In this document: one piece after another, positions 9,814 through 40,790 of the stretch
Layout of the letters: each line of letters begins with the position of its first letter
Numbering within the stretch: position 1 is the stretch's first letter
NCBI GenBank assembly: GCA_002840905.1
Contig: PHDD01000019.1
Coordinates: 1-64,000, forward strand
DNA from: Bacteroidetes bacterium HGW-Bacteroidetes-4
GTDB taxonomy: Bacteria; Bacteroidota; Bacteroidia; Bacteroidales; SZUA-534
Length of the DNA: 64,000 nucleotides
Direction: 5' to 3'
Program-made: the position numbers and the translations under genes
The notes under the pieces: generated by a model
What the model saw: only the letters and a program-made list of their open reading frames with translations
What the model was told of the DNA's origin: nothing
The model's database searches: none

Positions 9814-10692
9814 ATGGAACTGATTGACGGAAAGAAAATAAATGCAGCCATGCGGCTCGAAATAGCTGAAGAAGTCAGGAAAATGGTGGCTGAAGGAAAA
9901 AAGCGGCCCAATCTGGCGGTAATTATGGTGGGCGACGATGGAGCCAGCGCCACCTATGTGGCCAGTAAAGTAAAAACCTGTCACGAGGTGGGTTTTGAAT
10001 CGACCGATTATCAGTATCCGGCAACAGCCACCGAAGCTGAGATTCTGGCAAAAATTGAAGACATCAATCAGAACCCCGAAATCGACGGATTAATTGTTCA
10101 GCTTCCGCTGCCCACGCACATTAGCGAAAGCAAAGTAATTGAAGCCATTGATCACCGTAAGGATGTGGATGGTTTTCATCCCATAAATACCGGGCGTATG
10201 GCTATGGGACTTCCGTCGTATTTACCCGCTACCCCTGCCGGAATTATTGAATTATTACGGCGCTACAATATCGAAACCGGAGGAAAAAATTGTGTGGTAT
10301 TGGGTCGAAGCAATATTGTTGGAACCCCCATCAGCTTGTTGATGTCGCGTAAAGCCAACCCGGGAAATGCTACCGTAACTATTTGTCACAGCCGCACCAA
10401 AAACCTGAAGGAAGTTTGCGCCAGTGCCGATATTCTGATAGTTGCCATCGGTCAGCCTGAATTTGTAACTGCCGATATGGTAAAACCCGGAGCGGTGGTT
10501 ATTGATGTGGGTATACACCGCATGCCATCAGCTGAAACCAAATCGGGCTTTAAACTCAAAGGCGATGTTAACTTCGATGAGGTAGCACCCAAATGTAGCT
10601 ATATTACACCGGTTCCCGGAGGCGTGGGACCAATGACCATTATCAGCCTGCTGCAAAATACCCTGCTGGCAGCACAACAAAAGATATATTAG
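9814..10692 (+). CDS. folD: Methylene-THF dehydrogenase / cyclohydrolase FolD
   Basis: 292 residues, the usual length. The bifunctional cytosolic enzyme interconverts 5,10-methylene-THF and 10-formyl-THF using NADP+. The N-terminal catalytic domain has [11 protein letters not shown] with the essential Lys, and the [12 protein letters not shown] motif. The Rossmann domain has [17 protein letters not shown], and the C-terminus carries the signature [12 protein letters not shown]. It follows ffh by 105 bases, with the 18-bp repeats between, and may be co-transcribed. Confidence 0.97.
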
Positions 10693-10771
10693 TGTTTTTG
10701 AAGATACATATTGGCCTATCGCCCCAGGCTTTTATTTTGCTCAATAACTCCCGATTAGCGGTAAAAATCCT

Positions 10772-10779
10772 TATTTTTG
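10772..10779 (+). promoter_or_regulatory. -7 promoter element upstream of the GH31 gene
   Basis: TATTTTTG fits TAnnTTTG, 45 bases before the start codon at 10825. No convincing TTTG partner is seen about 20 bases upstream. Confidence 0.4.
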
Positions 10780-10824
10780 GATCCCACAAATTACCTTACG
10801 TTTTAATTCCATAAATTCAGCAAG

Positions 10825-13233
10825 ATGCAAAGCTACTTTATTAAAATTCAATGGTTAATACTCGGTCTGTTGTTGTGCTTTCAAGCCGCGGCACAAAACC
10901 AAAACCGGAGTTTTACCGGCTATAAACAAAACCTGGGAACAATTGAAATACAGGTTTCTGATGGAAACTATGTGATAACTCCCTTTACCAAGAAAATATT
11001 TCATGTGGCTTTTTATCCCCAACAGGAAAAAGTGAAGAATTATAGCTATGCACTTGCAGCAACTCCTGAAAAGGTGCATTTTATTATTAAAGACAAAGAA
11101 AATACGCTGATGATTGAATCGTCAGGAATAAAGGTGAAGGTTACCAAAGAACCCTTTAATCTGTCGTTTTATCATTTCAGCGATTTGTTAATTAGCGAGA
11201 ACAATGGTTATCAGTGGAGCGATTCAAGTCAGCAGGTAAGTTTTGGGCTTACTCCTGATGAGATTTTGTACGGAGGGGGAGCCCGTGTTATGGGTATGAA
11301 CCGGCGGGGAAACAGGCTCCAACTATACAATCGGGCGCATTACGGTTACGAAACGCATTCGGAGCTGATGAACTATACTTTACCTGTAGTCCTATCGTCA
11401 GGAAAATATGCCTTGCTTTTTGATAATGCTTCAGCCGGATACCTCGATCTGGATAGCAAAAACAACAATACCCTTACCTACGAAACGGAAAGCGGTACCT
11501 TGAATTATTATGTAATTGCAGCAAACAATTGGTACGAGCTGGTTGATAATTATACCTGGCTTACCGGGCGCCAACCCATGCCGGCCCGCTGGACTTTGGG
11601 AAATTTCAGCAGCCGCTTTGGTTACCATTCACAAAATGAGGTGTTGTCTACGGTGGATAAATTCTTTGAAGCATCGATACCCGTTGAAGCGGTTATTATT
11701 GATATTTACTGGTTTGGAAAAGAAATTATGGGAACCATGGGCAATCTGAACTGGTATCGCGACAGTTTTCCTGATCCCGACCAAATGATTGCTACATTGA
11801 ATAAAAAAGGGGTGAAACCCATTCTGGTAACCGAACCATTTATATTAACCACATCGGACCGATGGGGCGAGGCCGTAAATAACGATATCCTGGCCAAAGA
11901 CAGTCTGGGAAATCCGTTTACCTATGATTTTTACTTTGGAAATACGGGGTTAATCGATGTGTTTAAACCCGAAGCCCGAGAGTGGTTCTGGAATATTTAT
12001 AAAGACTTTACTGCCCAGGGAATTGGTGGCTGGTGGGGCGATTTGGGTGAGCCCGAAGTGCACCCGAAAGATTTGTTGCATGTGAATGGTTCAGCCAACG
12101 AGGTACACAATGCCTATGGACACGAATGGGCTAAAATTATTTTCGATGGATACCGCAGCAATTTTCCCGAAGTACGTCCTTTTATTTTGATGCGTGCCGG
12201 TTTTGCCGGTTCACAGCGATACGGAATGATTCCCTGGACCGGTGATGTAAACCGGAGTTGGGGTGGATTGGGTCCCCAGCCTGAAATATCGCTACAAATG
12301 GGAATGCAAGGGATTGCTTATATGCATTCTGATTTGGGCGGATTTGCCGGCGGTGAGGAGATTGATGATGAATTATACACGCGTTGGTTGCAATACGGAG
12401 TTTTTCAACCCATATACCGGCCGCATGCACAGGAGCATATTCCGGCCGAACCGGTATTTCAAAAACCAGCTACCAAAGCCCTGGCTAAAGAAGCCATTGC
12501 TCTGCGGTACAAATTGCTGCCCTACATTTATTCCATGGCTTTTGAAAACAGCCAGAGCGGAAAACCGTTGATGATTCCTCTATTTTTTAACGAAGATAAA
12601 AATCACGACTTGTTGACTTACGATCAGGCATATATGTTCGGCGATGCTTTTCTGGTTTCTCCGGTTAAAATAAAAGGAGCAAAAAATCAGAAAGTATATC
12701 TGCCCAAAGGCAGCCAATGGGTCGATTTTAATACAGCCCTTGCCTACGAAGGCGGACAGGAAATAGAAGTAACACTGGCTGAAAAGTACATTCCCGTTTT
12801 TGTAAAAGGAGGATCTTTTGTGCCTATGCATGCGCAAGCAAAGCAAACTCAGTATTACAGTCTCGATGCCTTTGAGGTGCATTATTATTTTGATGCGCAG
12901 CAAACCAGCAGCCAGTACCGGCTTTATAACGACGATGGCTCCACTTTCGATGCCTTTGGAAAAGGATTGTATGAATTTATTTACATGCAGGCATCTACCA
13001 CCGATAAAGAACTGGTTTTAAACTTTAGCCGCGAGAATGGCCGGAATTTTACCGGCATCCGCCAAAGCGAAATAAGTTTAGTTATCCATAATCTGGACCG
13101 AAAGCCTAAAAAGATAAGTGTGAACGGGGCAAAAATTAAAGGGTCGGAATTTACCTACGACGAAAATCAACGTTCGGTGGTTTTGAAAATGGCTTTGCGA
13201 AATACCGAAAAAGAAGTGCGTATCAGTTATTAA
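10825..13233 (+). CDS. Secreted GH31 alpha-glucosidase/xylosidase-type hydrolase
   Basis: 802 residues with a Sec signal peptide (cleavage near residue 23, after AAA). Domains: N-terminal beta-sandwich (about 30-250), catalytic (beta/alpha)8 barrel (about 255-570) and C-terminal beta domains including a DUF5110-like part (about 640-800). GH31 are retaining enzymes. The nucleophile is expected at Asp406 in GGWWGDLGEPE and the acid/base at Asp474 in IPWTGDVNRSW. GMQGIAYMHSDLGGFAGG is the conserved sugar-binding loop. Likely substrates are alpha-glucans or alpha-xylosides; specificity cannot be read from sequence. It is not flanked by susC/susD, but a GH97 alpha-glucosidase lies 2 kb downstream on the other strand. 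Confidence 0.93.
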   Translation: MQSYFIKIQWLILGLLLCFQAAAQNQNRSFTGYKQNLGTIEIQVSDGNYVITPFTKKIFHVAFYPQQEKVKNYSYALAATPEKVHFIIKDKENTLMIESSGIKVKVTKEPFNLSFYHFSDLLISENNGYQWSDSSQQVSFGLTPDEILYGGGARVMGMNRRGNRLQLYNRAHYGYETHSELMNYTLPVVLSSGKYALLFDNASAGYLDLDSKNNNTLTYETESGTLNYYVIAANNWYELVDNYTWLTGRQPMPARWTLGNFSSRFGYHSQNEVLSTVDKFFEASIPVEAVIIDIYWFGKEIMGTMGNLNWYRDSFPDPDQMIATLNKKGVKPILVTEPFILTTSDRWGEAVNNDILAKDSLGNPFTYDFYFGNTGLIDVFKPEAREWFWNIYKDFTAQGIGGWWGDLGEPEVHPKDLLHVNGSANEVHNAYGHEWAKIIFDGYRSNFPEVRPFILMRAGFAGSQRYGMIPWTGDVNRSWGGLGPQPEISLQMGMQGIAYMHSDLGGFAGGEEIDDELYTRWLQYGVFQPIYRPHAQEHIPAEPVFQKPATKALAKEAIALRYKLLPYIYSMAFENSQSGKPLMIPLFFNEDKNHDLLTYDQAYMFGDAFLVSPVKIKGAKNQKVYLPKGSQWVDFNTALAYEGGQEIEVTLAEKYIPVFVKGGSFVPMHAQAKQTQYYSLDAFEVHYYFDAQQTSSQYRLYNDDGSTFDAFGKGLYEFIYMQASTTDKELVLNFSRENGRNFTGIRQSEISLVIHNLDRKPKKISVNGAKIKGSEFTYDENQRSVVLKMALRNTEKEVRISY

Positions 13234-28118: not shown

Positions 28119-28499
28119 TTAGAATTATTGAAGTATTGAATTATTCATCATGCTTTTTTACTGATATTTATCAGTTATTTAAAATTATTTCCAATTTCAT
28201 CGCTTTTTAATTAGTTATTCAATAAATAATGTAAAAAAATACAACAGGTGTATAAAATATACACACAAGCGTCAAATAGTCACAAAATCAGATAGATACC
28301 CACCATTATAAAATTAACTGTTGATTAATTCAACAATTCATTTCTGTTAAAATCTTCCAATTTAAAAGCTAAATATCACAAATACAGCATTATACGTATT
28401 GCTTTTTTTGTGGCATTATAATTGGCTTTTATCGTATCGAATATGTAAAACGCTGTAAAACAGTAATTAATTAAAGGATACTATAAAAAGCGAACAGTT
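28119..28499. promoter_or_regulatory. Putative control region of the GcvH-like/NrfD operon
   Basis: 381 bases without a gene. Two short perfect dyads with identical 5-base spacers are present: GTGTAT/ATACAC (28248-28264) and TGTTGA/TCAACA (28319-28335). A direct repeat TGTAAAAC occurs at 28444-28451 and 28454-28461. No TAnnTTTG element precedes the operon, unlike most genes here. Dyads about 75-165 bases upstream of a -24/-12-like site are placed as expected for binding sites of a sigma-54 activator. All roles are inferred. Confidence 0.4.
28411..28426 (+). promoter_or_regulatory. -24/-12-like (sigma-54) promoter, imperfect
   Basis: TGGCATTATAATTGGC resembles the sigma-54 consensus TGGCACG-N4-TTGC, 73 bases before the operon start. 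The GG-to-GC spacing is one base longer than ideal, so this is a weak call. It is favoured by the NtrC-type regulator encoded at the same locus. Confidence 0.3.
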
Positions 28500-30182
28500 A
28501 TGAAAAATCTAATTTATGTTTTTGCCGGAGTTTTGTTTTTTTTCTTTTCCAACATCAGTATGGGAGAAACAATCAAAAATCCATCTTCTGAGGAAGGAAG
28601 CTTAACTTTGTTAAGTTCGCCCGATTTAAAAAACCTAAGTGCAAAATGGGCAAATGCGTACACATTGCAGCACCCGGAAATAACTATCTCTGTTGCAGAT
28701 TATTCCCCGGAAGCGCTTAACCAGCAAACAACCGGCAAGGGTTCACTGGCGCTGGTATCCAAACCTTTTGTTCAAACCAACGAATGGAAAAACACCTGGC
28801 ATGTTGTGGTTGCCCGAAAAGTTATTGTACCCATAATTAATAAAAACAATCCGGTATATGATTTACTGATAGAGAAGGGGCTTTCGGTTCAGCAACTAAC
28901 TGAATTGACTAACGCTAAAGAAAAAATTGATTGGGGTAGGTTAATGGGACAACAAAAAACAGCTTCAATTAATTTCTATACCTTTATCGATGAGGATATT
29001 AATGAAAAAGTAGCCGGTTTTTTAAACCGGGAATTGAAAGAATTAAACGGAAACATAGTCAGTGATGCAACTAAATTAATTCAAAGCATTCAGAATGATA
29101 AAAACGGAATAGGGTTTTGTTATCTGTCCGATTTGGTTCAACCAAACACAACCGATTTGCCTCAAGGATTGGCACTTCTTCCCATTGATAAAGACAGTAG
29201 CAGAAAATTGGAATCGTATGAAAAATTTTATGACAACACTAGTTCTTTTTCAAGAGGCGTATGGGTTGGAAAATATCCACAAACACTTATTACCAATGTT
29301 TATGCAGTGGCTTTGGAACAACCCGTTACTCAATCGGCCAAAAATTTCTACAATTGGTTACTAACCGATGGACAAAACCAGCTTCAAACCTTAGGATATA
29401 CTGAATTGGTAAATGCTGAAATTGCTTATAAAATGGATAAAGTAACGGATGAAGTTGTACTCACAGAAGTTCCCATCGAGCGTTTTTCGGGATTTAAAAT
29501 TTTTGTTATTCTGTTGATTGCTTTATTTATAGTTGGTTTATTGTTCGATATTTTGGTATTTAACCGATACCGCAAGACAGAAAAAATTCAGCTAAAAACT
29601 GAATTGTCAGGTTATTTTAATCAGCATCCCAAACCCATACCCGCTGGTTTATTTTTCGACAAATCGCACACTTGGGCATTTATGGAAAAATCAGGCAATG
29701 TTCGCATCGGTCTCGACGATTTTATTCCGTCGGTTACCGGAACAATTTCGGGCATTAAAATGAAAAAAGCCGGTGAAAACGTTAAAAAAGGAGAAGCGTT
29801 GGTAACACTCATTCAACAGGGAAAACAACTAATTATAAAAGCACCGGTTTCAGGAGTTATTAAAGAGAATAACAGTCATCTGATGCAAAATGCTGCATTA
29901 ATTAACACCGATCCTTATCAGGAAGGTTGGGTATATCTGATTGAACCAAGCAATTGGTTACGCGAGTTAAGTTTCTATTTAATGGCCGACAATTTTAAAA
30001 TTTGGCTAAAAGCAGAGTATTTGCGACTCAAAGACTTTATTGCCATTATTCAAAAACCCGGAGTAAGTTTAGCACACCAGGTAGTATTGCAGGATGGTGG
30101 TGAACTGAGAAGTGGTGTTCTTAAAGATATGGGACCAGAAGTCTGGGAAGATTTTCAACAACTGTTTATCAATGAAATGTAA
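28500..30182 (+). CDS. Substrate-binding-protein/GcvH-like membrane fusion protein
   Basis: 560 residues. Signal peptide (about 1-22). Periplasmic domain (about 34-310) resembles PstS-type substrate-binding proteins (SLTLLSSPDLKNLSAKWANA, GIGFCYLSDL, FYNWLLTDGQNQ). One TM (about 332-354). Cytoplasmic GcvH/lipoyl-like domain (about 385-490: HTWAFMEKSGNVRIGLDDF, VKKGEALVTLIQQGKQL, KAPVSGVI) and a C-terminal extension (QVVLQDGGELRSGVL, PEVWEDFQQLF). The candidate Lys442 is seven residues before the Pro of APVSG, whereas lipoylated GcvH has eight, so lipoylation is uncertain. First gene of a four-gene operon with a ferredoxin, an NrfD-like subunit and a second GcvH-like protein; no gcvP or gcvT is nearby. 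Role unknown. Confidence 0.8.
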   Translation: MKNLIYVFAGVLFFFFSNISMGETIKNPSSEEGSLTLLSSPDLKNLSAKWANAYTLQHPEITISVADYSPEALNQQTTGKGSLALVSKPFVQTNEWKNTWHVVVARKVIVPIINKNNPVYDLLIEKGLSVQQLTELTNAKEKIDWGRLMGQQKTASINFYTFIDEDINEKVAGFLNRELKELNGNIVSDATKLIQSIQNDKNGIGFCYLSDLVQPNTTDLPQGLALLPIDKDSSRKLESYEKFYDNTSSFSRGVWVGKYPQTLITNVYAVALEQPVTQSAKNFYNWLLTDGQNQLQTLGYTELVNAEIAYKMDKVTDEVVLTEVPIERFSGFKIFVILLIALFIVGLLFDILVFNRYRKTEKIQLKTELSGYFNQHPKPIPAGLFFDKSHTWAFMEKSGNVRIGLDDFIPSVTGTISGIKMKKAGENVKKGEALVTLIQQGKQLIIKAPVSGVIKENNSHLMQNAALINTDPYQEGWVYLIEPSNWLRELSFYLMADNFKIWLKAEYLRLKDFIAIIQKPGVSLAHQVVLQDGGELRSGVLKDMGPEVWEDFQQLFINEM

Positions 30183-30223: not shown

Positions 30224-31087
30224 ATGGGATTAGATAGAAGAAGTTTTTTCCAGATGCTTGGATTAACGGGATTAACCCTGGCCTTGGGAAAAGATGCCAA
30301 AGCTGCTCCAAGCGAAGAAGAAGCTGTAAGTTTTAAAGCCGTTCTATACGATTCTACACGTTGTGTAGGATGTCAGAGTTGTGAGTTTGCCTGCGCTGAA
30401 ACAAACGGACTACCGGAACCTACTGATGTTCCCGAAACAGGAGTTGTTCGTCAACTCGACGAAACCCGACGGACTGTAATCAATAGTTACGAAACCTCAA
30501 AAGGCGAAGTGTTTGTAAAACAGCAATGCATGCATTGCAACCAACCTGCCTGTGCTGCGGCTTGCTTAACAAAAGCCATGTTTAAAAACCAGGAAGGACC
30601 GGTTACCTGGCGTGGAAACAAATGTATGGGTTGCCGCTACTGCATGGTTTCCTGTCCGTTTGATATTCCAAAGTTTGAATACCACAGCGCCAATCCAAAA
30701 ATTGTGAAATGCACCATGTGTGTCGACCGCTTGGCTGAGGGTGAACTGCCCGCCTGCGTTGAAAATTGTCCGGCCGAGGCATTGACTTTTGGAACACGCG
30801 AAGAACTGATTAAAGAAGCAAGGCGTCGGATTCATGACGATACCGATACCTATTATGATTACATTTATGGAGAACACGAAGCCGGTGGAACCAGCTTTTT
30901 ATACCTGTCGCCGGTTTCATTTAACGAATTGGGATTCAATACAAAAATTCAAAAATCGTCCTACCCTGAACTGTCAAAAGGCTTTTTATACAGCGTACCC
31001 AGCATTTTTGTTTTATGGCCGGCTATGCTCTTAGGTTTACAGCAGGCTACAAAAGATAACGAACTTAAAACTGAAAACGATGATTAA
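30224..31087 (+). CDS. Tat-exported four-cluster ferredoxin (HybA/NrfC-like)
   Basis: 287 residues. The N-terminus has a twin-arginine signal (DRRSFFQMLGLTGLTLALG), so it should be folded with its clusters and then exported. Sixteen cysteines form four [4Fe-4S] sites: 47/50/53/57, 102/105/110/114, 134/137/140/144 and 163/166/178/182, the standard HybA/NrfC/DmsB arrangement. A hydrophobic helix near 254-272 probably anchors the C-terminus, as in HybA. It would pass electrons between a periplasmic partner and the NrfD-like subunit encoded next; the coding regions overlap by 8 bases, indicating tight coupling. No molybdopterin or hydrogenase catalytic subunit is adjacent. Confidence 0.92.
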   Translation: MGLDRRSFFQMLGLTGLTLALGKDAKAAPSEEEAVSFKAVLYDSTRCVGCQSCEFACAETNGLPEPTDVPETGVVRQLDETRRTVINSYETSKGEVFVKQQCMHCNQPACAAACLTKAMFKNQEGPVTWRGNKCMGCRYCMVSCPFDIPKFEYHSANPKIVKCTMCVDRLAEGELPACVENCPAEALTFGTREELIKEARRRIHDDTDTYYDYIYGEHEAGGTSFLYLSPVSFNELGFNTKIQKSSYPELSKGFLYSVPSIFVLWPAMLLGLQQATKDNELKTENDD

Positions 31088-32303
31088 CACCGATACAATG
31101 ATTTATCGTGATAACGATGGGAAAAATATTTGGCAATTTCTGAAGCAGGAGTTAAAGCCAAAAGGAAAATGGTTAACCCCTTTTAATTTGATATCGTTAC
31201 CCATAATGCTATTGGGTTTGGTATTAATTGTAATTCGTTTTTGGAAAGGAATAGGTTCCATTACCAATTTAACGCAGGATGTTCCCTGGGGACTTTGGAT
31301 TGGTTTTGATGTAGTTACCGGAGTAGCGTTTGCCGGTGGTGCATACGTAATTACCTTTATGGTTTATATACTGAATATGAAAAAATACCATTCCATTGTT
31401 CGGGTAACCGTACTAAACGGATTTTTGGCTTACGTATTTTATGCCGGCGCGCTGCTGCTCGATTTGGGGCGCCCATGGAACGTAGTTAATCCGATAATTG
31501 GAAATAGTTTTGGTACCAGTTCGGTTTTATTTTTGGTTGCCTGGCACTTTTTATTGTACATGATAGCACAACTCATTGAATTTTCGCCGGCTATTGCCGA
31601 ATGGATAGGTCATAAAAGAGCACATAAAATACTTTCAGCCATGACAATTGGTGCCGTTATTTTTGGAATAACCCTTTCAACCTTGCACCAATCGGGTTTG
31701 GGAGCCTTATTTTTAATGGCTAAAGATAAAATTCATCCCCTTTGGTACAATGAGTTCATTCCCATTATGTTCTTTGTGTCCAGTATTTTTGCCGGATTAT
31801 CGATGGTGATTTTTGAGGGCTCCATTAGCAATAAAGTTTTTTCAGATCAAATTAGTGAAAAAAACCAAAAAGCTCATCATTCCATTGTAATTAGTCTGTG
31901 TAAAATATGTGCCATGGCCATGTTTGCCTATTTCTTTTTACAGGTTTTAATTTTTGTTCATGAACAACACTGGAGTTATTTAACTACATCTTGGGGTTTG
32001 TGGTTTTTAACTGAAATGTTTGTGTTTGTGCTGTTACCCATGCTCTTGTTTGTTTATAGCTATAAAACGAATAGTTTTTTTATGGCCAAAGTGGCGGCAG
32101 TAATTACCATGCTTGGAATTATTATAAACCGCCTAAATGTAACCGTAATAGGATTCAAATGGGATGCTGCTGTACCTTATTATCCCTCGTGGATGGAAAT
32201 TGCAGTTACACTGGCTGTTATCTTTACTGAAATTTGGATTTTCCGTTGGATAATTAACCGGATGCCGGTATTGCGTGAATCGCCCCAATGGGCTAAAAAA
32301 TAA
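31080..32303 (+). CDS. NrfD/HybB-like quinone-interacting membrane subunit
   Basis: 407 residues with about ten hydrophobic helices. Family landmarks are DVPWGLWIGFDVVTGVAFAGGAY (read as DVPWGLWIGFD then VAFAGGAY) on an early helix pair, GALLLDLGRPWN, and LSTLHQSGLGALFL. These are typical of HybB/NrfD proteins, which exchange electrons with menaquinone and partner a four-cluster ferredoxin. The start overlaps the ferredoxin gene's end. With the ferredoxin it forms a two-subunit quinone/periplasm electron conduit; the terminal donor or acceptor is not encoded here. Confidence 0.93.
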   Translation: MINTDTMIYRDNDGKNIWQFLKQELKPKGKWLTPFNLISLPIMLLGLVLIVIRFWKGIGSITNLTQDVPWGLWIGFDVVTGVAFAGGAYVITFMVYILNMKKYHSIVRVTVLNGFLAYVFYAGALLLDLGRPWNVVNPIIGNSFGTSSVLFLVAWHFLLYMIAQLIEFSPAIAEWIGHKRAHKILSAMTIGAVIFGITLSTLHQSGLGALFLMAKDKIHPLWYNEFIPIMFFVSSIFAGLSMVIFEGSISNKVFSDQISEKNQKAHHSIVISLCKICAMAMFAYFFLQVLIFVHEQHWSYLTTSWGLWFLTEMFVFVLLPMLLFVYSYKTNSFFMAKVAAVITMLGIIINRLNVTVIGFKWDAAVPYYPSWMEIAVTLAVIFTEIWIFRWIINRMPVLRESPQWAKK

Positions 32304-32357
32304 TTTGTTTAACCACAATTGGATGTAAGCAATTCAATTGATTTAAAATTTACAATT

Positions 32358-33068
32358 ATGGATGGTTTTACTTATCACGATATCTTTCAGACAAAAGGTA
32401 TTGAATACTTAATTATCATAGCGTTTTTCATGGTTTTGATTCCATTTTGGATTATGATAAACCGAAAAACAAAGTTTGTAGCTAAAATTCACGATTCGCT
32501 AAGTCGATTAACAACTTCCGTATTAAAAATCCCGAAAGGCGTTTTTTACAGTCAGCATCATACCTGGGCTTTTCTTGAGAAGTCGGGCAACGCACAGATT
32601 GGAATTGACGATTGGTTGTTGCATATTACCGGGGCCTCAATTGTTAAACCCCTAATCTCAGTGGGCGAAACCGTTAAAAAAGGCGATGTTATTTCTCAGC
32701 TGGTAAAAGATGGCAAATCGCTCGAGGTGCTTTCGCCAATTTCGGGAACTATTTTAAAGGTCAATTTTAAAGTCTTTGAAGCTCCCGAAAAAATGCTTGA
32801 AAATCCATTCGATGGGGGTTGGCTTTTTAAAATTGAACCAGACCATTGGAAAGCGGAAACTAACCAGTACTATTTGGGCGAAGACTCAAAAGCCTGGTAC
32901 GAAAGCGAGATGAGCCGTTTTAAAGATTTTGTTGCCGTATCTATGGCTGAAAGTAATGCAAGCCTTAGCAACATAGTTTTGCAGGAAGGTGGTGAGCTAA
33001 TGGATTATCCGCTGGCTGAAATGAATGCTGAGGTCTGGAATAGTTTTCAGAATGAATTTTTAAAATAG
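32358..33068 (+). CDS. Membrane-anchored GcvH-like protein
   Basis: 236 residues from ATG 32358; an in-frame TTG at 32319 is unlikely. One N-terminal TM (about 16-34), then a GcvH/lipoyl-like domain (about 60-160: HHTWAFLEKSGNAQIGIDDW, VKKGDVISQLVKDGKSL, LSPISGTILKVN). The C-terminal extension (SNIVLQEGGELMDYPL, AEVWNSFQNEF) matches that of the first protein of the operon, so the two are paralogous modules. Lys120 sits seven residues before the Pro of SPISG, offset by one from lipoylated GcvH. It ends the operon at a terminator. Possibly a scaffold or carrier for the electron-transfer subunits; this is inference. Confidence 0.8.
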   Translation: MDGFTYHDIFQTKGIEYLIIIAFFMVLIPFWIMINRKTKFVAKIHDSLSRLTTSVLKIPKGVFYSQHHTWAFLEKSGNAQIGIDDWLLHITGASIVKPLISVGETVKKGDVISQLVKDGKSLEVLSPISGTILKVNFKVFEAPEKMLENPFDGGWLFKIEPDHWKAETNQYYLGEDSKAWYESEMSRFKDFVAVSMAESNASLSNIVLQEGGELMDYPLAEMNAEVWNSFQNEFLK

Positions 33069-33082
33069 CTGATATATTACAG

Positions 33083-33115
33083 GAAAAACCGGGTGTCAAA
33101 ATGCCCGGTTTTTGC
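33083..33115 (+). terminator. Terminator of the GcvH-like/NrfD operon
   Basis: AAAACCGGG (33085-33093) pairs with CCCGGTTTT (33104-33112), followed by a short T run. It separates the operon from the kinase/regulator pair. Confidence 0.8.
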
Positions 33116-33168: not shown

Positions 33169-34836
33169 ATGGAAGAGCAAAAGGCAACAAATACAAACGG
33201 GACTATCAAGCCTAAATTAAAAAAATACCTTCGGTTTCACCGTTCAATTTATGGACGAGTAGTATATACCATAAGTATTTTATCCCTAATTCTTTTTTTA
33301 TCGTTTGGTTCCATTTTTCACTATGTGTATCGCGAGTACCTGAATACAGTTATTAAGCAAAATGGTAACATGGTTGGCTCTATGGTCGAAGGTTCACTGT
33401 ATTATTCCATGCTTACCAACGATAAAGGCGCCTTACAAAGCAGTTTGGATATAATAAACACCATTCCCGGAATCGATGAGGTGAATATGTATAATCATAC
33501 CGATAGTCTGGTTTTTTCAACCCACAACAGTGAATTGTCGGGTATAAGTAGTGCAAATTGTATTTCGTGTCACAGCGATTTTAATACTATGTTTTCACAG
33601 GAAGAAAAATCGTACCGAATAATTGATATGAAAAGCGCTTGCAGTATGAACCAGACAGAGCGAGGGCATCGTCAATTACTTATTCGAAAACCTATACTAA
33701 ACGAAAAATCGTGCTTTACTGCCGATTGCCATTATCACGGTGAAAACGATAAGTTACTGGGGTCGTTAATTATAAAAGTCCCTTTGACCGAACTCGACGG
33801 ATCCATTAAACGTTCTTCGACTGAATTTTTTATTCTAGCCACCATCACCACCGTTTTATTAGTATTGTTTTTAATACTATTTACAAGCAAGGAAATTAAA
33901 AAGCCCTTGCACAATATTATTGTGGCCAGCGAATCGGTAGCCAATGGCGATAGGGCAACCCGAATCGAAATAAAACCCAATTTACTCGACGATATGCGCA
34001 TGGTTTCGAAGGCATTTAACAATATGCTCGATAACCTGAGTGCAGCCAACCTGGAACTGCAAAACTGGTCGAAACAGTTGGAATACAAAGTACAGATAAA
34101 GTCGGATAAGTTGGTACAGATGCAAAAAGAACTTATACATATTGAGCGAATTGCATCGCTGGGGAAGTTATCGTCGTCTGTTGCACACGAAATAAACAAC
34201 CCGCTATCGGGTGTTTTAACTTATACAAAATTGGTTCATAAATTGCTTGAAAAGAATCAGATGGAACAAAAATCCAAAGATTCGATGTTAAATTACCTGA
34301 AGATTATTGAGTCGGAAACCAAACGCTGTGGCGATATTGTAAAAAGCCTGCTTGATTTTTCACGTAAAGATCAGGAAAATTTTGAGACCAAACCCATGCA
34401 CAAAATTTTAAAGGAAGCTTACGATTTGATGGCGCATCAGCTTAAAATATCAAACATTCATTTTTATGCCGATTTTAAAGCCAGCAACGATGTCATTAGT
34501 TGCAGGGAAAATCAGATTAAACAAGCCTGTATTGCCATGCTGGTAAATGCATCGGAAGCGGTTTCAGAAAATGGAGAAGTGATGATGCGGACTTCAAATC
34601 CTGATGAGGACCACATAAAACTCGACATCATGGACAATGGAATAGGCATAAGCGCTGACGATATTCAGCATATTTTTGAGCCCTTCTTTTCGGCAAAACA
34701 AAAAGTAAATGGTGTAGGTTTGGGTTTGGCTATTGTTCATGGAATTGTACAAAACCATAAGGGAAAAATTGAGGTTGATTCGGAGGTTGGCAAGTACACC
34801 ACCATGTCGGTAACATTACCATTATATAAGGAATAA
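33169..34836 (+). CDS. Sensor histidine kinase with periplasmic c-type haem motifs
   Basis: 555 residues from ATG 33169. TM1 about 31-53. The periplasmic domain (54-218) contains CISCH (131-135), a CXXCH haem-attachment motif, and C182-FTAD-C187-H188, a CX4CH motif of the kind known in multihaem cytochromes. TM2 about 219-238, HAMP about 237-292, a coiled linker, then HisKA with SVAHEINNP (phospho-acceptor His340) and HATPase boxes (MLVNASEAVSENG, IMDNGIGIS, GVGLGLAIV). It probably senses periplasmic redox state or a haem ligand and phosphorylates the regulator encoded 16 bases downstream. Haem attachment would need cytochrome c maturation encoded elsewhere. Confidence 0.9.
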   Translation: MEEQKATNTNGTIKPKLKKYLRFHRSIYGRVVYTISILSLILFLSFGSIFHYVYREYLNTVIKQNGNMVGSMVEGSLYYSMLTNDKGALQSSLDIINTIPGIDEVNMYNHTDSLVFSTHNSELSGISSANCISCHSDFNTMFSQEEKSYRIIDMKSACSMNQTERGHRQLLIRKPILNEKSCFTADCHYHGENDKLLGSLIIKVPLTELDGSIKRSSTEFFILATITTVLLVLFLILFTSKEIKKPLHNIIVASESVANGDRATRIEIKPNLLDDMRMVSKAFNNMLDNLSAANLELQNWSKQLEYKVQIKSDKLVQMQKELIHIERIASLGKLSSSVAHEINNPLSGVLTYTKLVHKLLEKNQMEQKSKDSMLNYLKIIESETKRCGDIVKSLLDFSRKDQENFETKPMHKILKEAYDLMAHQLKISNIHFYADFKASNDVISCRENQIKQACIAMLVNASEAVSENGEVMMRTSNPDEDHIKLDIMDNGIGISADDIQHIFEPFFSAKQKVNGVGLGLAIVHGIVQNHKGKIEVDSEVGKYTTMSVTLPLYKE

Positions 34837-34851
34837 ATAAAAGATTGTATT

Positions 34852-36195
34852 ATGGCAAAATCTATTTCCATACTTATTGTTGACGATGAAGCATCGGTTC
34901 GCGATTCGCTGAACAATTGGTTTATCGAAGATGGTTACCAGGTAGCTTGTGCTGCGGATGCAAAAGAGGCCCTGAGTTTATTGGAGTCGAAAAGCTTCGA
35001 TATTGTTTTAGCCGATATTAAAATGCCCGGCATGGATGGATTGGAAATGCACCGCCGTATAAAGGTTTTAAATAAAGAGGCCATTGTTATTATTATGACT
35101 GCCTTCGCGTCGGTCGATACAGCCGTGCAAGCATTAAAAGACGGAGCTTACGATTATGTTACCAAACCTTTCGACCCCGATGATCTTTCGCATTTAATCC
35201 GTAATGCCACCAAACACATATCGCTTAAAACCGAAAACGAAGCCCTGCGAAACAAAGTAGTTTCACTTGAAAATGTTGAAGATATTATTGGTGTAAGCGA
35301 GCCCATGATGAAGGTTTTTAAAGAAATTGAAAGCGTAGCCCAATCCAATTCATCGGTTATTATTACCGGCGAAAGCGGAACCGGAAAAGAACTCATTGCC
35401 CGGGCTATCCATTTTAATTCGCCACGCAAATATTTTTCGCTGGTAAGCGTGCATTGTGGGGCTTTAACCGAGAGTCTGCTCGAAAGCGAATTGTTTGGAC
35501 ACGAAAAAGGTGCGTTTACCGGTGCCATGTTTAACCGGAAAGGGCGTTTTGAAATGGCCGATGGCGGAACCATTTTTTTAGACGAAATAGCTACCATTTC
35601 AACCAAGATGCAGGTGGAGTTGCTGCGTGTGCTCGAAACCAAAAGCTTTGTTAGAGTGGGGGGTAACAAGGAAATTAAATCCGATTTCCGGGTGATTTGT
35701 GCCACCAACAAAAACCTAAAAAAAATGGTTGAAAATGGTACTTTCCGCGAAGACTTATTCTACCGTTTAAATGTTGTAAATATCAATGTTCCTCCCTTAC
35801 GCGAAAGGGTTGAGGACATTCCCTTATTGGTTAATTATTTTATAAAAAAATACTGCAATGCCATGAGTCGCGACATTGTTACTGTGGACCCGGCTGCCAT
35901 GAAACGCATTGAGGAATTTGAATTTCCGGGCAACGTGCGCGAATTGGAAAACATGATTGAGCGAGCCATTGTAATTGGAAACGGAAAAGAAATCAGGTTA
36001 AAAGACTTGCCTTTAGGAAAAGAGATTGTGTACAACTCGGCCGAAAGCCTCGAAGATTTGGAAAAGAGACATATTCAGTTTATTCTAAATAAATACAATT
36101 GGAATATATCACGCGCAGCAAAAGTACTAAGCATCGATCGGGTAACTTTGTATAATAAAATTAAAAAATACGATTTAAAGTCAGAAACCGAATAA
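34852..36195 (+). CDS. NtrC-family sigma-54-dependent response regulator
   Basis: 447 residues. Receiver domain 1-120 (acidic pair Asp11/Asp12, phospho-acceptor Asp55 in LADIKMPG, Lys105 in TKPF). AAA+ domain about 142-375 with Walker A GESGTGKE (173-180), the sigma-54 contact loop GAFTGA (220-225) and Walker B GGTIFLDEIA. A Fis-type helix-turn-helix is at the C-terminus (NWNISRAAKVLSIDRVTLYNKI). All elements for sigma-54 activation are intact. It follows the haem-motif kinase by 16 bases, so they form a two-component pair. The likely target is the operon at 28500, whose upstream region has dyads and a -24/-12-like sequence. Confidence 0.95.
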   Translation: MAKSISILIVDDEASVRDSLNNWFIEDGYQVACAADAKEALSLLESKSFDIVLADIKMPGMDGLEMHRRIKVLNKEAIVIIMTAFASVDTAVQALKDGAYDYVTKPFDPDDLSHLIRNATKHISLKTENEALRNKVVSLENVEDIIGVSEPMMKVFKEIESVAQSNSSVIITGESGTGKELIARAIHFNSPRKYFSLVSVHCGALTESLLESELFGHEKGAFTGAMFNRKGRFEMADGGTIFLDEIATISTKMQVELLRVLETKSFVRVGGNKEIKSDFRVICATNKNLKKMVENGTFREDLFYRLNVVNINVPPLRERVEDIPLLVNYFIKKYCNAMSRDIVTVDPAAMKRIEEFEFPGNVRELENMIERAIVIGNGKEIRLKDLPLGKEIVYNSAESLEDLEKRHIQFILNKYNWNISRAAKVLSIDRVTLYNKIKKYDLKSETE

Positions 36196-36239: not shown

Positions 36240-36785
36240 TTGAAGAAGCAACAAATCATATTCTATATAAAAGGGCAATTTGAACCAGACTGCCTGCAAC
36301 GACTTAGTCAGGAGGTTTCAATAACTTTTAACCGGCAAGTGCTTATCCGAAATCTGGATTTAGATTTAGAGCCTTTTTACGATTTTAAACGCCGCCAATA
36401 CGATGCCCATAAAATATTGTATTGGCTTGATACCAATGAGGACAACGAAAATGATAAAAAAATTGCCTTAGTTTCAGTCGATTTGTACATTTCCATTTTA
36501 ACTTTTTTATTTGGTCAGGCCATTTTTAATGGAAATACAGGTATTGTTTCTAATTACAGGCTACGTAATGAGCAATATGGTTTAGCTCCTGATTCTAAAC
36601 TTACTTTTTTGCGTTTTAAAAAAGTAATTATCCATGAATTAGGGCATATGTTCGGTTTGGTTCATTGCCAGGTTCCCACTTGCGTAATGCGTTCAAGTAC
36701 TTATGTTGAAGATATTGATCAAAAGAAATCGCAGTTTTGCAGTATTTGCAGCCCTAAAATTGATAGTGAACCCGCATCGGTGTAG
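36240..36785 (+). CDS. Archaemetzincin-type zinc metalloprotease
   Basis: 181 residues. The archaemetzincin signature is complete: His132-Glu133, His136, Gly139, His142-Cys143, Cys148 and Met150, then Cys167/Cys170 (FCSIC). This is the HExxHxxGxxHC-x4-CxM plus CxxC pattern, binding a catalytic zinc and a structural zinc. No signal peptide, so it is cytosolic. The start is TTG at 36240 because no ATG or GTG precedes the conserved fold and a stop lies just upstream. It begins 44 bases after the response regulator with no terminator between, suggesting co-transcription. The physiological substrate of bacterial archaemetzincins is not established. Confidence 0.88.
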   Translation: MKKQQIIFYIKGQFEPDCLQRLSQEVSITFNRQVLIRNLDLDLEPFYDFKRRQYDAHKILYWLDTNEDNENDKKIALVSVDLYISILTFLFGQAIFNGNTGIVSNYRLRNEQYGLAPDSKLTFLRFKKVIIHELGHMFGLVHCQVPTCVMRSSTYVEDIDQKKSQFCSICSPKIDSEPASV

Positions 36786-37366: not shown

Positions 37367-37660
37367 TTAAACCGACTTTAGAACTTCCCAAACAAAAGCC
37401 CTAATTCCGACTTCCTCATTAATCGCGTTAATTTTCTGAACTTTATCGAGTACGGTGTCAACCAACGTATCATCTACCACAGAAATTATGGCTGAATTCA
37501 TTTCGGGCCAGGTATGCGTACCCATATGCGGAACACCGGTTTCACTTCCGCGTCCGCTTACATTGGTCCACTGGGTAAAGCCCCTGATGTTGAGCATATC
37601 TAACATGTATTCCACTTTTTCGGTGTGGGCCTGATTGTATATTATAAATATTGCTTTCAT
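37367..37660 (-). CDS. PG0541-type RND-associated protein (PII-like)
   Basis: 97 residues, cytosolic, ferredoxin-like fold. It begins MKAIFIIYNQAHTEKVEYML and continues FTQWTNVSGRGSETGVPHMG, typical of the PG0541 transporter-associated family that accompanies RND exporters in Bacteroidota and resembles PII/CutA proteins. It follows the RND pump gene by 13 bases and is the last gene of the operon. A regulatory role on the pump is plausible but unproven. Confidence 0.82.
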   Translation of the reverse strand: MKAIFIIYNQAHTEKVEYMLDMLNIRGFTQWTNVSGRGSETGVPHMGTHTWPEMNSAIISVVDDTLVDTVLDKVQKINAINEEVGIRAFVWEVLKSV

Positions 37661-37673
37661 AAAATTGTACTTT

Positions 37674-40600
37674 TTAGTTGTTCATAAAATCAAACTGGGC
37701 TCTTACTTCTTTAGTTTTGTTTCGTTCCCCTTTGGTAGCAAAAATGCGGTAAATTACCGGAACAATAATCATGGTAATAAAGGTTGAAAACAACAAGCCG
37801 CCAATCACTGAAATTCCCATAGGGCTCCATATTTCTGAACCTTCACCGGTACTTAAAGCCAGCGGTAACATACCTAAAATAGTGGTTAAAGCGGTCATTA
37901 ACACAGGACGCAACCTCGATTTTCCCGATTCAACTATCGCCTGGTCAAGATCCATTCCCCGTTCACGCATCAGGTTAATGTAATCGACAAGTACTATGGC
38001 ATTCTTAACCACAATTCCTACCAGCATTATAGCTCCTAAGGCAGCAATAACACTTAGGTTGGTACCGGTAATCAACAAGGCAAGTATTACTCCGGTAAAG
38101 GCAAATGGAATCGACATCATGATAATTAATGGCATTTTTAGCGATTCAAACTGTGAAGCCATTACAATGTAAACTAAAACCAGACTCAGCAAGAGAAGTA
38201 AGCCCAAATCTTTGAAACTGTCCATTTGATCTTCGTAAGCTCCACCTACTTCAATCATAACCTCGTTGGGAACGTCCATTTTATCGATTTCTGCCTGAAT
38301 ATTTGCTGCCAAATCACCCAGCGGAACTTTATAGGGCGTGGCCGATACTTTAACAATACGCTCACGACGCTGACGCTCGATATTTGGTGGCGACCAATAC
38401 TCCTTTACCTGACCCACATCGCCCAGCCTGACTGTTTTACCAGTGGCAGTTTGTAATAAAATCTGTTCTAAATCGGTGATGGAGTTCCGGTATTCTTCTT
38501 TAAAACGGATAATTACGTTGTATTCTTCACCCTGTTCCCGGTAAATGGTTGCAGTTAATCCGGCTATCCGGTTGTATAGTGCTGTAGATACCATGGCTGT
38601 GTTTAATCCCACAGCAGCCATTTTTTCACGATCGAGTTCAATGCGCAGTTCGGGTTTCGATTTTTCACGACTGATTTCGATGTTGCGGGCTCCCGGCACA
38701 TTTTTAAGCTTTTGAGCCAGTTCATTGGCCAGGTTGGTGGTTACATCGAGGTTGTAGCCGTAGATTTCCACATCAACCGCATTCCCGCCCGACATACCTC
38801 CACTACCCAGGGTAATGTTATAATTGGTTATTTCGGGAAAGGTGTTCAGCTGTTTACGTACTTCTTCGGCAATATCCCATATAGTTCGGGTTCTTTCTTC
38901 AATATGTTTTAGTTTAACCGTGTAATTAATAATGTTGGTTCCCGTTGAAAAAAACATGGCCATCATACCTCCGTCTTCATCAGCACCAGCTGATGTGCTT
39001 ATCAATTGAATTTCAGGAAAGGAGTACAAAATGGAATCGATTCTACGGGCCAACGCTATGGTTTTTTCAACCCGGGTTCCCGATTGAAGTTCAACTTCAA
39101 TGCTAAAGCGCCCTTCGTCGGTTTCAGGCATAAATTCGGTACCCAGGTTCCCGGCCATGAATAAACTTCCAACAAATACAACCAGTGCACCAATAATTAG
39201 TATAAAACGATTTTTTATACTCCATCCCAGTATTTTTCCATACCAGTTATCCAAGCGGTTAAAATAGGGAATTACAATTTTATCGAAACTGAATTTTTTA
39301 ACTTCATTGTTATTTTTCTGAAGGCGCAATAATTTTGAGCTCAACATGGGTGTAAGCGAAATAGCTGCCATTGTAGAGGTAACAACAGTTATGGTAACAA
39401 TCCAACCCAGTTCACGGAACATAATTCCGGTCATTCCGCTTACCATGGTCATGGGGAAGAACACAGCCACAACGGTTAAAGTGGTTACAATTACGGCCAT
39501 CCATACTTCGTTGGTGGCATAAATGGCGGCCTCACGCGGACTTGCACCCCGGTCAATGTGTTTTGCTATGTTTTCGAGTACCACAATGGCATCGTCAACT
39601 ACCATTCCAATAGCAATGGAAAGCGCCGACAGCGAAATAATATTGATGGAACTACCGGTAACATATAAATAAATAAAAGCAACAATGAGTGAAATGGGAA
39701 TGGTGAGCACAATAATAAACGTTGCCCGCCAACGCCCCAAAAAGAACATTACCACCAGGGTAACAAAAATTAAGGCGTACATTAAGGTGTTGGTCAGGTT
39801 GCTAATGGAACCATTGATGAATTCACTCGAATCGTAAATTGTAGTCAATGCAATATCGCCTGGTAAATCAAGCTTAAGTTCGGGTAGTTTTTTATTAATT
39901 TCCTGGGCAATTTTTACCGTATTAGCACCCGACTGCTTCATAATCATCATGCGAACACCTTGTTTCCCGTTGATTTTTTCATCAATGGTCATGTCCTTTA
40001 TGGAATCACGTACCGATGCAACATCTTTTAAATAAATGGTTTGTCCGTTAAAATTACCCAAAACCAGATCTTTAATTTGATCGCTGTCGCTAAATTCACC
40101 TTCTACCCGCAAGGGATAGTTCATTTGTCCCATTTTAATGTTTCCTGAAGGCATATTCAGGTTTTCGGCCCGCAGAATAGTTCCAATTTGTTCTACCGAT
40201 ATATTGTAGGCTTCCAGCTTTTGTGGATTAATATCGATACTAACCTGCCGGATGGGTGAACCAATCAGACTGATAGACCCGATGCCGTTAATGCGGTTGA
40301 GCGGATTCACCAGTTTTTCGTCCAGTATTTTTTCAATTCCTTCATAACTCTCATCTGCTGTAATGGCAAACATCATGATAGGAATCATGCTCGAACTGAA
40401 TTTGAAGATGGTGGGTTTTTCGGCATCTTCAGGCAGACTTTTTTCAACCAGCGACAAGGCATCGCGAATATCATTGGCTGCTTCGCTCAAATCAGAGCCA
40501 TATTCAAATTCGAGAGAAACTACCGAAATATTATCGCGTGACACCGAACTTATTTTTTTTAGATTATCCAGGGTGTTAAGCGAATTTTCAATGGGTCGCG

Positions 40601-40790
40601 ATATATTGGTTTCAATATCAGCTGCATTGGAACCAGCGTAGGTAGTAAATACCGTAATGGCCGGGAATTCAATATCGGGATACATATCGATGGGTAATTT
40701 TACCAACGAGTACAAGCCGAATACAATAATCGCCATAAAAATCATGATGGTGGTTATTGGTTTTTTTACAGCACTTCCGTAAATACTCAT
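37674..40790 (-). CDS. RND efflux pump inner-membrane subunit
   Basis: 1038 residues, full length for the HAE/AcrB-type family. Twelve membrane helices are arranged as one plus five in each half, with two large periplasmic domains (about 35-330 and 560-855). The start MSIYGSAVKKPITTIMIFMAIIV is typical (here split as MSIYGSAVKKPITT and IMIFMAIIV). TM4 carries the proton-relay acidic pair in IAIGMVVDDAIVVLENI. It imports protons to export drugs, lipids or other compounds through the adaptor and TolC-type channel encoded upstream. The substrate is not predictable. Middle of a five-gene minus-strand operon. Confidence 0.95.
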   Translation of the reverse strand: MSIYGSAVKKPITTIMIFMAIIVFGLYSLVKLPIDMYPDIEFPAITVFTTYAGSNAADIETNISRPIENSLNTLDNLKKISSVSRDNISVVSLEFEYGSDLSEAANDIRDALSLVEKSLPEDAEKPTIFKFSSSMIPIMMFAITADESYEGIEKILDEKLVNPLNRINGIGSISLIGSPIRQVSIDINPQKLEAYNISVEQIGTILRAENLNMPSGNIKMGQMNYPLRVEGEFSDSDQIKDLVLGNFNGQTIYLKDVASVRDSIKDMTIDEKINGKQGVRMMIMKQSGANTVKIAQEINKKLPELKLDLPGDIALTTIYDSSEFINGSISNLTNTLMYALIFVTLVVMFFLGRWRATFIIVLTIPISLIVAFIYLYVTGSSINIISLSALSIAIGMVVDDAIVVLENIAKHIDRGASPREAAIYATNEVWMAVIVTTLTVVAVFFPMTMVSGMTGIMFRELGWIVTITVVTSTMAAISLTPMLSSKLLRLQKNNNEVKKFSFDKIVIPYFNRLDNWYGKILGWSIKNRFILIIGALVVFVGSLFMAGNLGTEFMPETDEGRFSIEVELQSGTRVEKTIALARRIDSILYSFPEIQLISTSAGADEDGGMMAMFFSTGTNIINYTVKLKHIEERTRTIWDIAEEVRKQLNTFPEITNYNITLGSGGMSGGNAVDVEIYGYNLDVTTNLANELAQKLKNVPGARNIEISREKSKPELRIELDREKMAAVGLNTAMVSTALYNRIAGLTATIYREQGEEYNVIIRFKEEYRNSITDLEQILLQTATGKTVRLGDVGQVKEYWSPPNIERQRRERIVKVSATPYKVPLGDLAANIQAEIDKMDVPNEVMIEVGGAYEDQMDSFKDLGLLLLLSLVLVYIVMASQFESLKMPLIIMMSIPFAFTGVILALLITGTNLSVIAALGAIMLVGIVVKNAIVLVDYINLMRERGMDLDQAIVESGKSRLRPVLMTALTTILGMLPLALSTGEGSEIWSPMGISVIGGLLFSTFITMIIVPVIYRIFATKGERNKTKEVRAQFDFMNN

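Follow-up and report, generated by a model that had tools for sequence, protein, structure and literature searches.

The locus at positions 33169-34836 raises the question of what its sensor kinase perceives in the periplasm and which genes it controls. Here, the window denotes the whole 64,000-nucleotide stretch of Bacteroidetes bacterium HGW-Bacteroidetes-4 DNA that was analyzed; the window features described below lie on its plus strand unless stated otherwise. The kinase ORF starts with ATG, and its frame is open upstream as far as a TTG at 33112. The 555-residue product comprises TM1 (approximately residues 26-54), a Cache-like domain, TM2 (approximately residues 216-244), HAMP, HisKA and HATPase_c; the helices were located by hydropathy, and the last three domains all score above their Pfam cut-offs. 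With HisKA and HATPase_c domains, two membrane helices and a HAMP domain, it is a transmembrane HisKA-type histidine kinase. In agreement with the HisKA match, the His that accepts the phosphoryl group lies in the H box HEINNP (34186-34203). The sensor-domain stretch used throughout (33235-33786, 184 amino acid residues) was delimited from alignments and a structural model and extends from TM1 as far as the final strand ahead of TM2. It contains CISCH (residues 131-135, 33559-33573), Cys158 (33640-33642) and CFTADCHYH, a CX4CHxH motif (residues 182-190, 33712-33738). An earlier note on this DNA, made from its letters alone, had described a sensor kinase with CISCH and CX4CH between two membrane helices, and Pfam matches, hydropathy and motif conservation all bear this out. 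The second His of CX4CHxH, Cys158, the cognate regulator and the operon go beyond that note.

Conservation of the motifs was assessed in related Bacteroidota loci retrieved by peptide patterns that did not include any Cys or His motif. A total of 202 loci were confirmed, and the counts given here use the best 80 of these 202. All 80 have CxxCH, CX4CHxH and one Cys between them; since the search patterns were free of the motifs, their retention is beyond chance. CxxCH, CX4CHxH and the intervening Cys are likewise kept in 11/11 aligned orthologues, which come from 10 of 99 genomes, one of them with two tandem copies. Tandem duplication of the kinase was also seen in loci L037, L094, L121, L122 and L133, where both copies have CxxCH and CX4CHxH. 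A profile search found the sensor domain in 55 of 395 genomes sampled from the phylum; the window's own genome has one clear copy, its other two matches having E values of 0.006 and 0.7. Of the loci from this search, 29 distant ones were analyzed besides the window's own; all of them have CxxCH and CX4CHxH, and none has the third Cys at the position of Cys158. The invariant residues of the close branch include five Cys and three His; Cys158 is invariant in the Bacteroidales branch and missing from the distant one. A hand-picked alignment of 17 rows (6 of the 11 close rows and 11 of the 29 distant loci, the latter with 22-28% identity to the window sensor domain) has 11 invariant columns. Seven of these columns correspond to the motif Cys and His residues, and the only others are M59, N156, L175 and G176 (domain numbering).

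The AlphaFold2 model of the sensor domain, built from 81 sequences, is of moderate quality (pLDDT 72.6, pTM 0.60). It predicts a long helix and a second helix followed by five strands. CISCH falls after strand two and ahead of strand three, and CX4CH begins on a short helix that precedes the final strand. VIA-align matched the model to WalK (Z 10.9, rmsd 3.1, 126 aligned residues), KinD (Z 10.4, rmsd 3.6, 140 aligned) and CitA (Z 8.2, rmsd 3.5, 115 aligned). Foldseek and VIA-align both put the model among Cache sensors, and the domain is therefore predicted to have a Cache fold. The best PDB match in the sequence profile search was GSU0935 (3b42), a sensor that carries a single haem c, with a whole-sequence E value of 6.7e-5; the two aligned stretches are each weak when taken alone (approximately 12 bits, independent E value of about 1). 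In this match the CXXCH of 3b42, in NEQRC..SCHD...LGGL, is aligned with NEkSC...CHaH...LGvL of the family. Foldseek also matched the model to 3b42 (E value of 8.9e-5), although the two superpose badly (rmsd 14.8, TM 0.34/0.47). This may be due to the swapped dimers that the GSU0935 domain is described as forming in the available part of PMC3460858. 3b42 was not among the VIA-align matches listed, nor were Tll0287 and GSU0582 (3b47) among those of Foldseek and VIA-align, which excludes nothing.

These alignments suggest that CX4CH, two residues longer than the GSU0935 motif, occupies the known GSU0935 haem site. CISCH, a canonical CXXCH located elsewhere in the domain than that site, appears to be an additional haem site. 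At the level of Pfam, the window sensor domain has no match above cut-off. Among the 81 members the commonest weak matches were to Mcp40H-20_sensor (31), CusS (28), CHASE5 (23) and sCache_4 (20). The window domain scores 13.2 bits (E value of 0.12) against Mcp40H-20_sensor (PF21563), below the cut-off of 27 bits, and the distant relative L043 scores 27.8 bits, above it. For the window domain, PF11845 was absent from the matches listed up to an E value of 10, in a search whose filters drop most matches above 0.1; it matched one of the 81 members (E value of 0.063), and the best E value among distant relatives was 0.012, below cut-off. The residues aligned with the conserved haem site also form CX4CH and not the CXXCH typical of PF11845. 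On these profile results, the kinase is not assigned to PF11845.

Covalent haem would have to be attached by a maturation system, and the earlier note held that its absence from the genome would speak against haem. The genome has one PF01578 match, and the same 1022-residue ORF also matches ResB; judged by these matches, it encodes a CcsBA-type haem lyase. This is a weak test, since PF01578 is present in 391/395 genomes of the phylum sample; the four exceptions all fall outside the 55 sensor carriers. Co-occurrence with the haem lyase was accordingly rejected as a test for haem, being uninformative for a nearly universal family, and the presence of the lyase is permissive, not diagnostic, for haem on the kinase. 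ORFs with six and seven CxxCH share a contig with the CcsBA-type ORF. On another contig, a 505-residue ORF with four CxxCH and one CxxCK adjoins an ORF with four CxxCH; we take this pair to be the nitrite reductase NrfA/NrfH. Together, motif conservation, the alignment with GSU0935, the Cache fold and the haem lyase support the earlier proposal of one or two covalent haems, with the haem itself inferred from them. The periplasmic domain very probably binds two haems, at CISCH and at CX4CH, and we hold the simultaneous presence of haem at both sites to be likely.

The kinase gene is part of a conserved operon, in the order PBP-GcvH, HmcB-like, NrfD, GcvH-like, kinase, sigma-54 regulator and archaemetzincin. 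Of the 80 loci, only those whose flanks were long enough entered the neighbor counts, and these loci are partly non-independent (L082 and L083 look nearly identical). The first gene (28500-30182, 64/64 loci) encodes a PBP-like domain, a membrane helix and a GcvH-like domain, with PBP_like_2 and GCV_H above cut-off. It is followed by an HmcB/HybA-like 4Fe-4S protein (30224-31087, 62/68 loci), which has Fer4 domains, scores 325 bits against HmcB (cut-off 420 bits) and is also below the HybA cut-off. The HmcC/HybB-like, NrfD-type membrane protein (31080-32303, 63/71 loci) is above the NrfD cut-off and scores 401 bits against HmcC (cut-off 550 bits). A GcvH-like protein (32319-33068, 72/73 loci) is above the Pfam GCV_H cut-off and below the NCBIfam gcvH cut-offs; counts for this and the first gene overlap because they have the GCV_H domain in common. 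A nearby NrfD match is missing from 8 of the 71 loci (L087, L107, L111, L120, L125, L129, L135 and L139), in which the kinase and PBP-GcvH-like matches are kept, and the PBP-GcvH gene was matched also in loci missing both NrfD and HmcB. Downstream of the kinase is a sigma-54-dependent response regulator (34852-36195, 73/73 loci) with receiver, AAA+ and Fis-type helix-turn-helix domains assigned by Pfam, the probable partner of the kinase.

Several features of this neighborhood were recorded as observations in their own right. Two GcvH-like domains, in 28500-30182 and 32319-33068, adjoin the NrfD module, one of them behind the PBP-like domain; each exceeds the Pfam cut-off for GCV_H and stays under those of NCBIfam for gcvH. 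Inspected by eye, both presumably lack the canonical lipoylation motif and have a G-K pair nearby instead. The gene following the regulator (36240-36785, 60/61 loci) encodes an archaemetzincin-family protein (NF033823, 157 bits, cut-off 145 bits). Further on, at 37367-40790, a minus-strand ORF of 97 residues lies beside an ORF of 1038 residues, which by eye we take to resemble an RND efflux pump.

Gene context of the distant sensors was analyzed in stretches from 16 of the 55 carrier genomes, the window's own genome aside, containing 19 sensors. HmcB- and NrfD-like matches lie within 6 kb of 18 of these 19, paired sensors in one stretch sharing the same matches; the remaining sensor, L199, has no electron-transfer neighbors within 6 kb. 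An ORF with 13 CxxCH is located directly 5' of a sensor kinase in 6/16 stretches, and one such ORF that was compared with HmcA scored 56.7 bits, far below the cut-off of 400 bits. A Qrc-like set, with QrcA above cut-off and QrcB and QrcC below, lies opposite one distant sensor. The L058 sensor locus has a confusing cytochrome neighbor. Judged from these matches, the steady partners of the sensors are genes of quinone-linked electron-transfer modules, which favors redox state over a gas as the signal. In L187, a receiver domain fused to a GcvH-like domain behind an apparent membrane helix (10671-11837) adjoins the distant kinase, which may point to an output acting on the electron-transfer complex itself; tblastn detected a similar layout in L190, L191, L192 and L201.

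Upstream of the operon we found two elements that may link it to the regulator. The regions compared were those of the window and of 65 of the 80 loci, the rest falling short of the required first-gene match length or of 400 bp upstream. A sigma-54-type site, TGGCATTATAATTGG (28411-28425), is the proposed operon promoter. Its pattern, TGGYAY-N5-TTG, is present in 60/66 upstream regions compared with 0.4 in block shuffles, a score that is optimistic because these 66 regions also served to refine the pattern; with spacings of 3, 4, 6 and 7 it was found in 1/66 each. When the base after TTG is required to be A, G or C, 28411-28425 is the sole site of this kind on either strand of the window. It emerged once only TTG was demanded of the -12 element. 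Stricter, classical sigma-54 patterns with a terminal TGC matched 0/66 and 1/66, and 4/66 with loose spacing (0.58 expected), and GG-N10-GC alone was at chance level (16/66 versus 16.8). The second element is an inverted repeat, TGTTGATTAATTCAACA (28319-28335), the proposed regulator site. Its pattern, TGTTGA-N5-TCAACA, is present in 24/66 upstream regions compared with 0.03 in shuffles; gaps of 0-4 and 6-10 gave none and a gap of 11 gave one among the 66 regions. In the 4.3-Mb genome the perfect repeat is found only at 28319-28335, where simple arithmetic gives an expectation of approximately 0.3 to 0.5. A genome search allowing one mismatch gave 31 places, compared with 17 for the reversed pattern. 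One of them, a one-mismatch copy (G000:C22:6290-6306), is at an ORF start between the CcsBA-type ORF and the six-CxxCH ORF, which may be chance. Plasmids gave no match. From its linkage we infer that the regulator at 34852-36195 binds TGTTGA-N5-TCAACA. The genome encodes RpoN, and since the repeat is perfect only here and stands with a sigma-54-type site, this is probably a local, self-regulating circuit of a single operon. Control of the kinase and regulator over their own operon is, in our judgment, likely.

We therefore favor, with a probability of roughly 0.6, a kinase with two haems that senses the periplasmic redox state and controls its own electron-transfer operon through a sigma-54 regulator. 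The periplasmic single-Cache domain would carry two haems c, at CISCH and CX4CH. Either periplasmic cytochromes or quinone-linked electron flow would determine the redox state (and axial ligation) of these haems. A change in that state would shift the Cache domain, and the movement would reach the kinase core by way of TM2 and HAMP. The kinase would then phosphorylate the adjacent regulator, which would bind the TGTTGA-N5-TCAACA repeats located 5' of 28500 and act together with RpoN to switch on the operon encoding the NrfD/HmcB-like electron-transfer module. Redox as the main signal is somewhat better than an even bet. Counted against the reading as a whole are the weak individual stretches and poor superposition with 3b42, the missing Pfam match, the moderate model, the lone sensor L199 and the loci without NrfD. 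A further, tentative possibility is that the two haems exchange electrons with the adjacent NrfD/Hmc/Qrc-type complex or with a cytochrome, the extra His of CX4CHxH perhaps being an axial ligand of the neighboring haem. The kinase would in this way gauge how loaded with electrons the complex is and set its expression through the single-operon sigma-54 switch.

The best-surviving alternative, which we consider unlikely, is a periplasmic sensor of NO or another gas, in which one labile or five-coordinate haem binds NO and the other tunes or reduces it. According to the available text of PMC12889525, a single-haem sCache_heme protein of P. azotoformans linked to transmembrane helices and HAMP behaves as an NO sensor, and this relative, which does not behave as a redox protein, also counts against the redox reading. 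The window kinase has the same fold class and arrangement, and the presumed NrfA/NrfH pair could connect it with nitrogen oxides. On the other side, the linked genes are electron-transfer modules, Pfam and NCBIfam profiles recognized no NO-handling gene in the operon, and a sixth ligand could be provided by the invariant second His and, in the Bacteroidales branch, by Cys158. The earlier note had named redox state, O2, CO and NO as signals: redox is favored by the electron-transfer context and NO is conceivable by analogy with the protein described in the accessible part of PMC12889525, while O2 and CO gained no specific support.

Still less probable is that no haem is bound and the Cys and His residues coordinate an iron-sulfur cluster or zinc, or act as thiol-disulfide switches. 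The invariance of five Cys and three His in the close branch and a CX4CH spacing that is unusual for haem c would agree with this. The motifs nevertheless lie between two membrane helices in a genome with a haem lyase, one of them aligns with a known haem c site, and the distant branch has lost the fifth Cys and kept both motifs. Least probable of all is a ligand-binding Cache sensor with structural haem, its signal coming from the PBP-like domain encoded by the first gene or from a small molecule: the best fold matches are indeed ligand- or partner-controlled Cache sensors and PBP-GcvH is present in every locus counted, even without NrfD and HmcB, but the four invariant residues beyond the motifs leave no conserved ligand pocket apparent.

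Haem c sensors of the Cache fold are established, with DcrA, GSU0582 and GSU0935 as examples in the part of PMC8396549 available. The current grouping is sCache_heme (DUF3365/Tll0287-like, PF11845), which includes GSU0582 and GSU0935 (PMC12889525, available text). Like its members as described there, the window kinase combines a predicted Cache fold, in which a putative haem c site precedes the final strand, with transmembrane helices, HAMP and a kinase; unlike them, it has CX4CHxH at that site, an extra CXXCH earlier and no PF11845 match. The terms Bacteroid, diheme and CX4CH are absent from the text of that paper. Two motifs in one transducer are not new: the accessible part of PMC8396549 describes Geobacter GSU0591 and GSU0599 as signal transducers with two motifs of the signature CX2-4CH, and that of PMC3831638 reports additional haem motifs in Anaeromyxobacter Adeh_2011 and Adeh_3383, to all of which the kinase is likened by description only. 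It also resembles DcrA of Desulfovibrio vulgaris, again by description only, in its putative periplasmic haem c domain; DcrA is reported to sense redox potential and oxygen and, unlike the window kinase, is a chemotaxis transducer (PMC8396549, available part). The HmcB- and HmcC-like proteins recall the HmcBC, HybAB and Qrc complexes, as does the Qrc-like set beside one distant sensor; unlike these complexes, the window operon has no multihaem subunit and has PBP-GcvH and GcvH-like genes in addition. In the literature covered, with most subscription journals outside it, we found no description of the operon, of a two-haem Cache kinase, of a branch in Bacteroidota that strictly keeps CX4CHxH, of CX4CH in alignment with the haem site, or of an associated NrfD operon and its promoter logic.

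Single-haem sensors are thus known, whereas the two-haem branch and its partner genes have hardly been studied. If our reading is true, Bacteroidota have a directly testable periplasmic redox sensor with a defined promoter, a defined operator and apparently a single target operon. Because sensors of this type accompany Hmc/Hyb-like and, once, Qrc-like genes, they could show what these poorly understood complexes respond to. Through this kinase one could also address how a second haem and a CX4CH site arose in a Cache domain.
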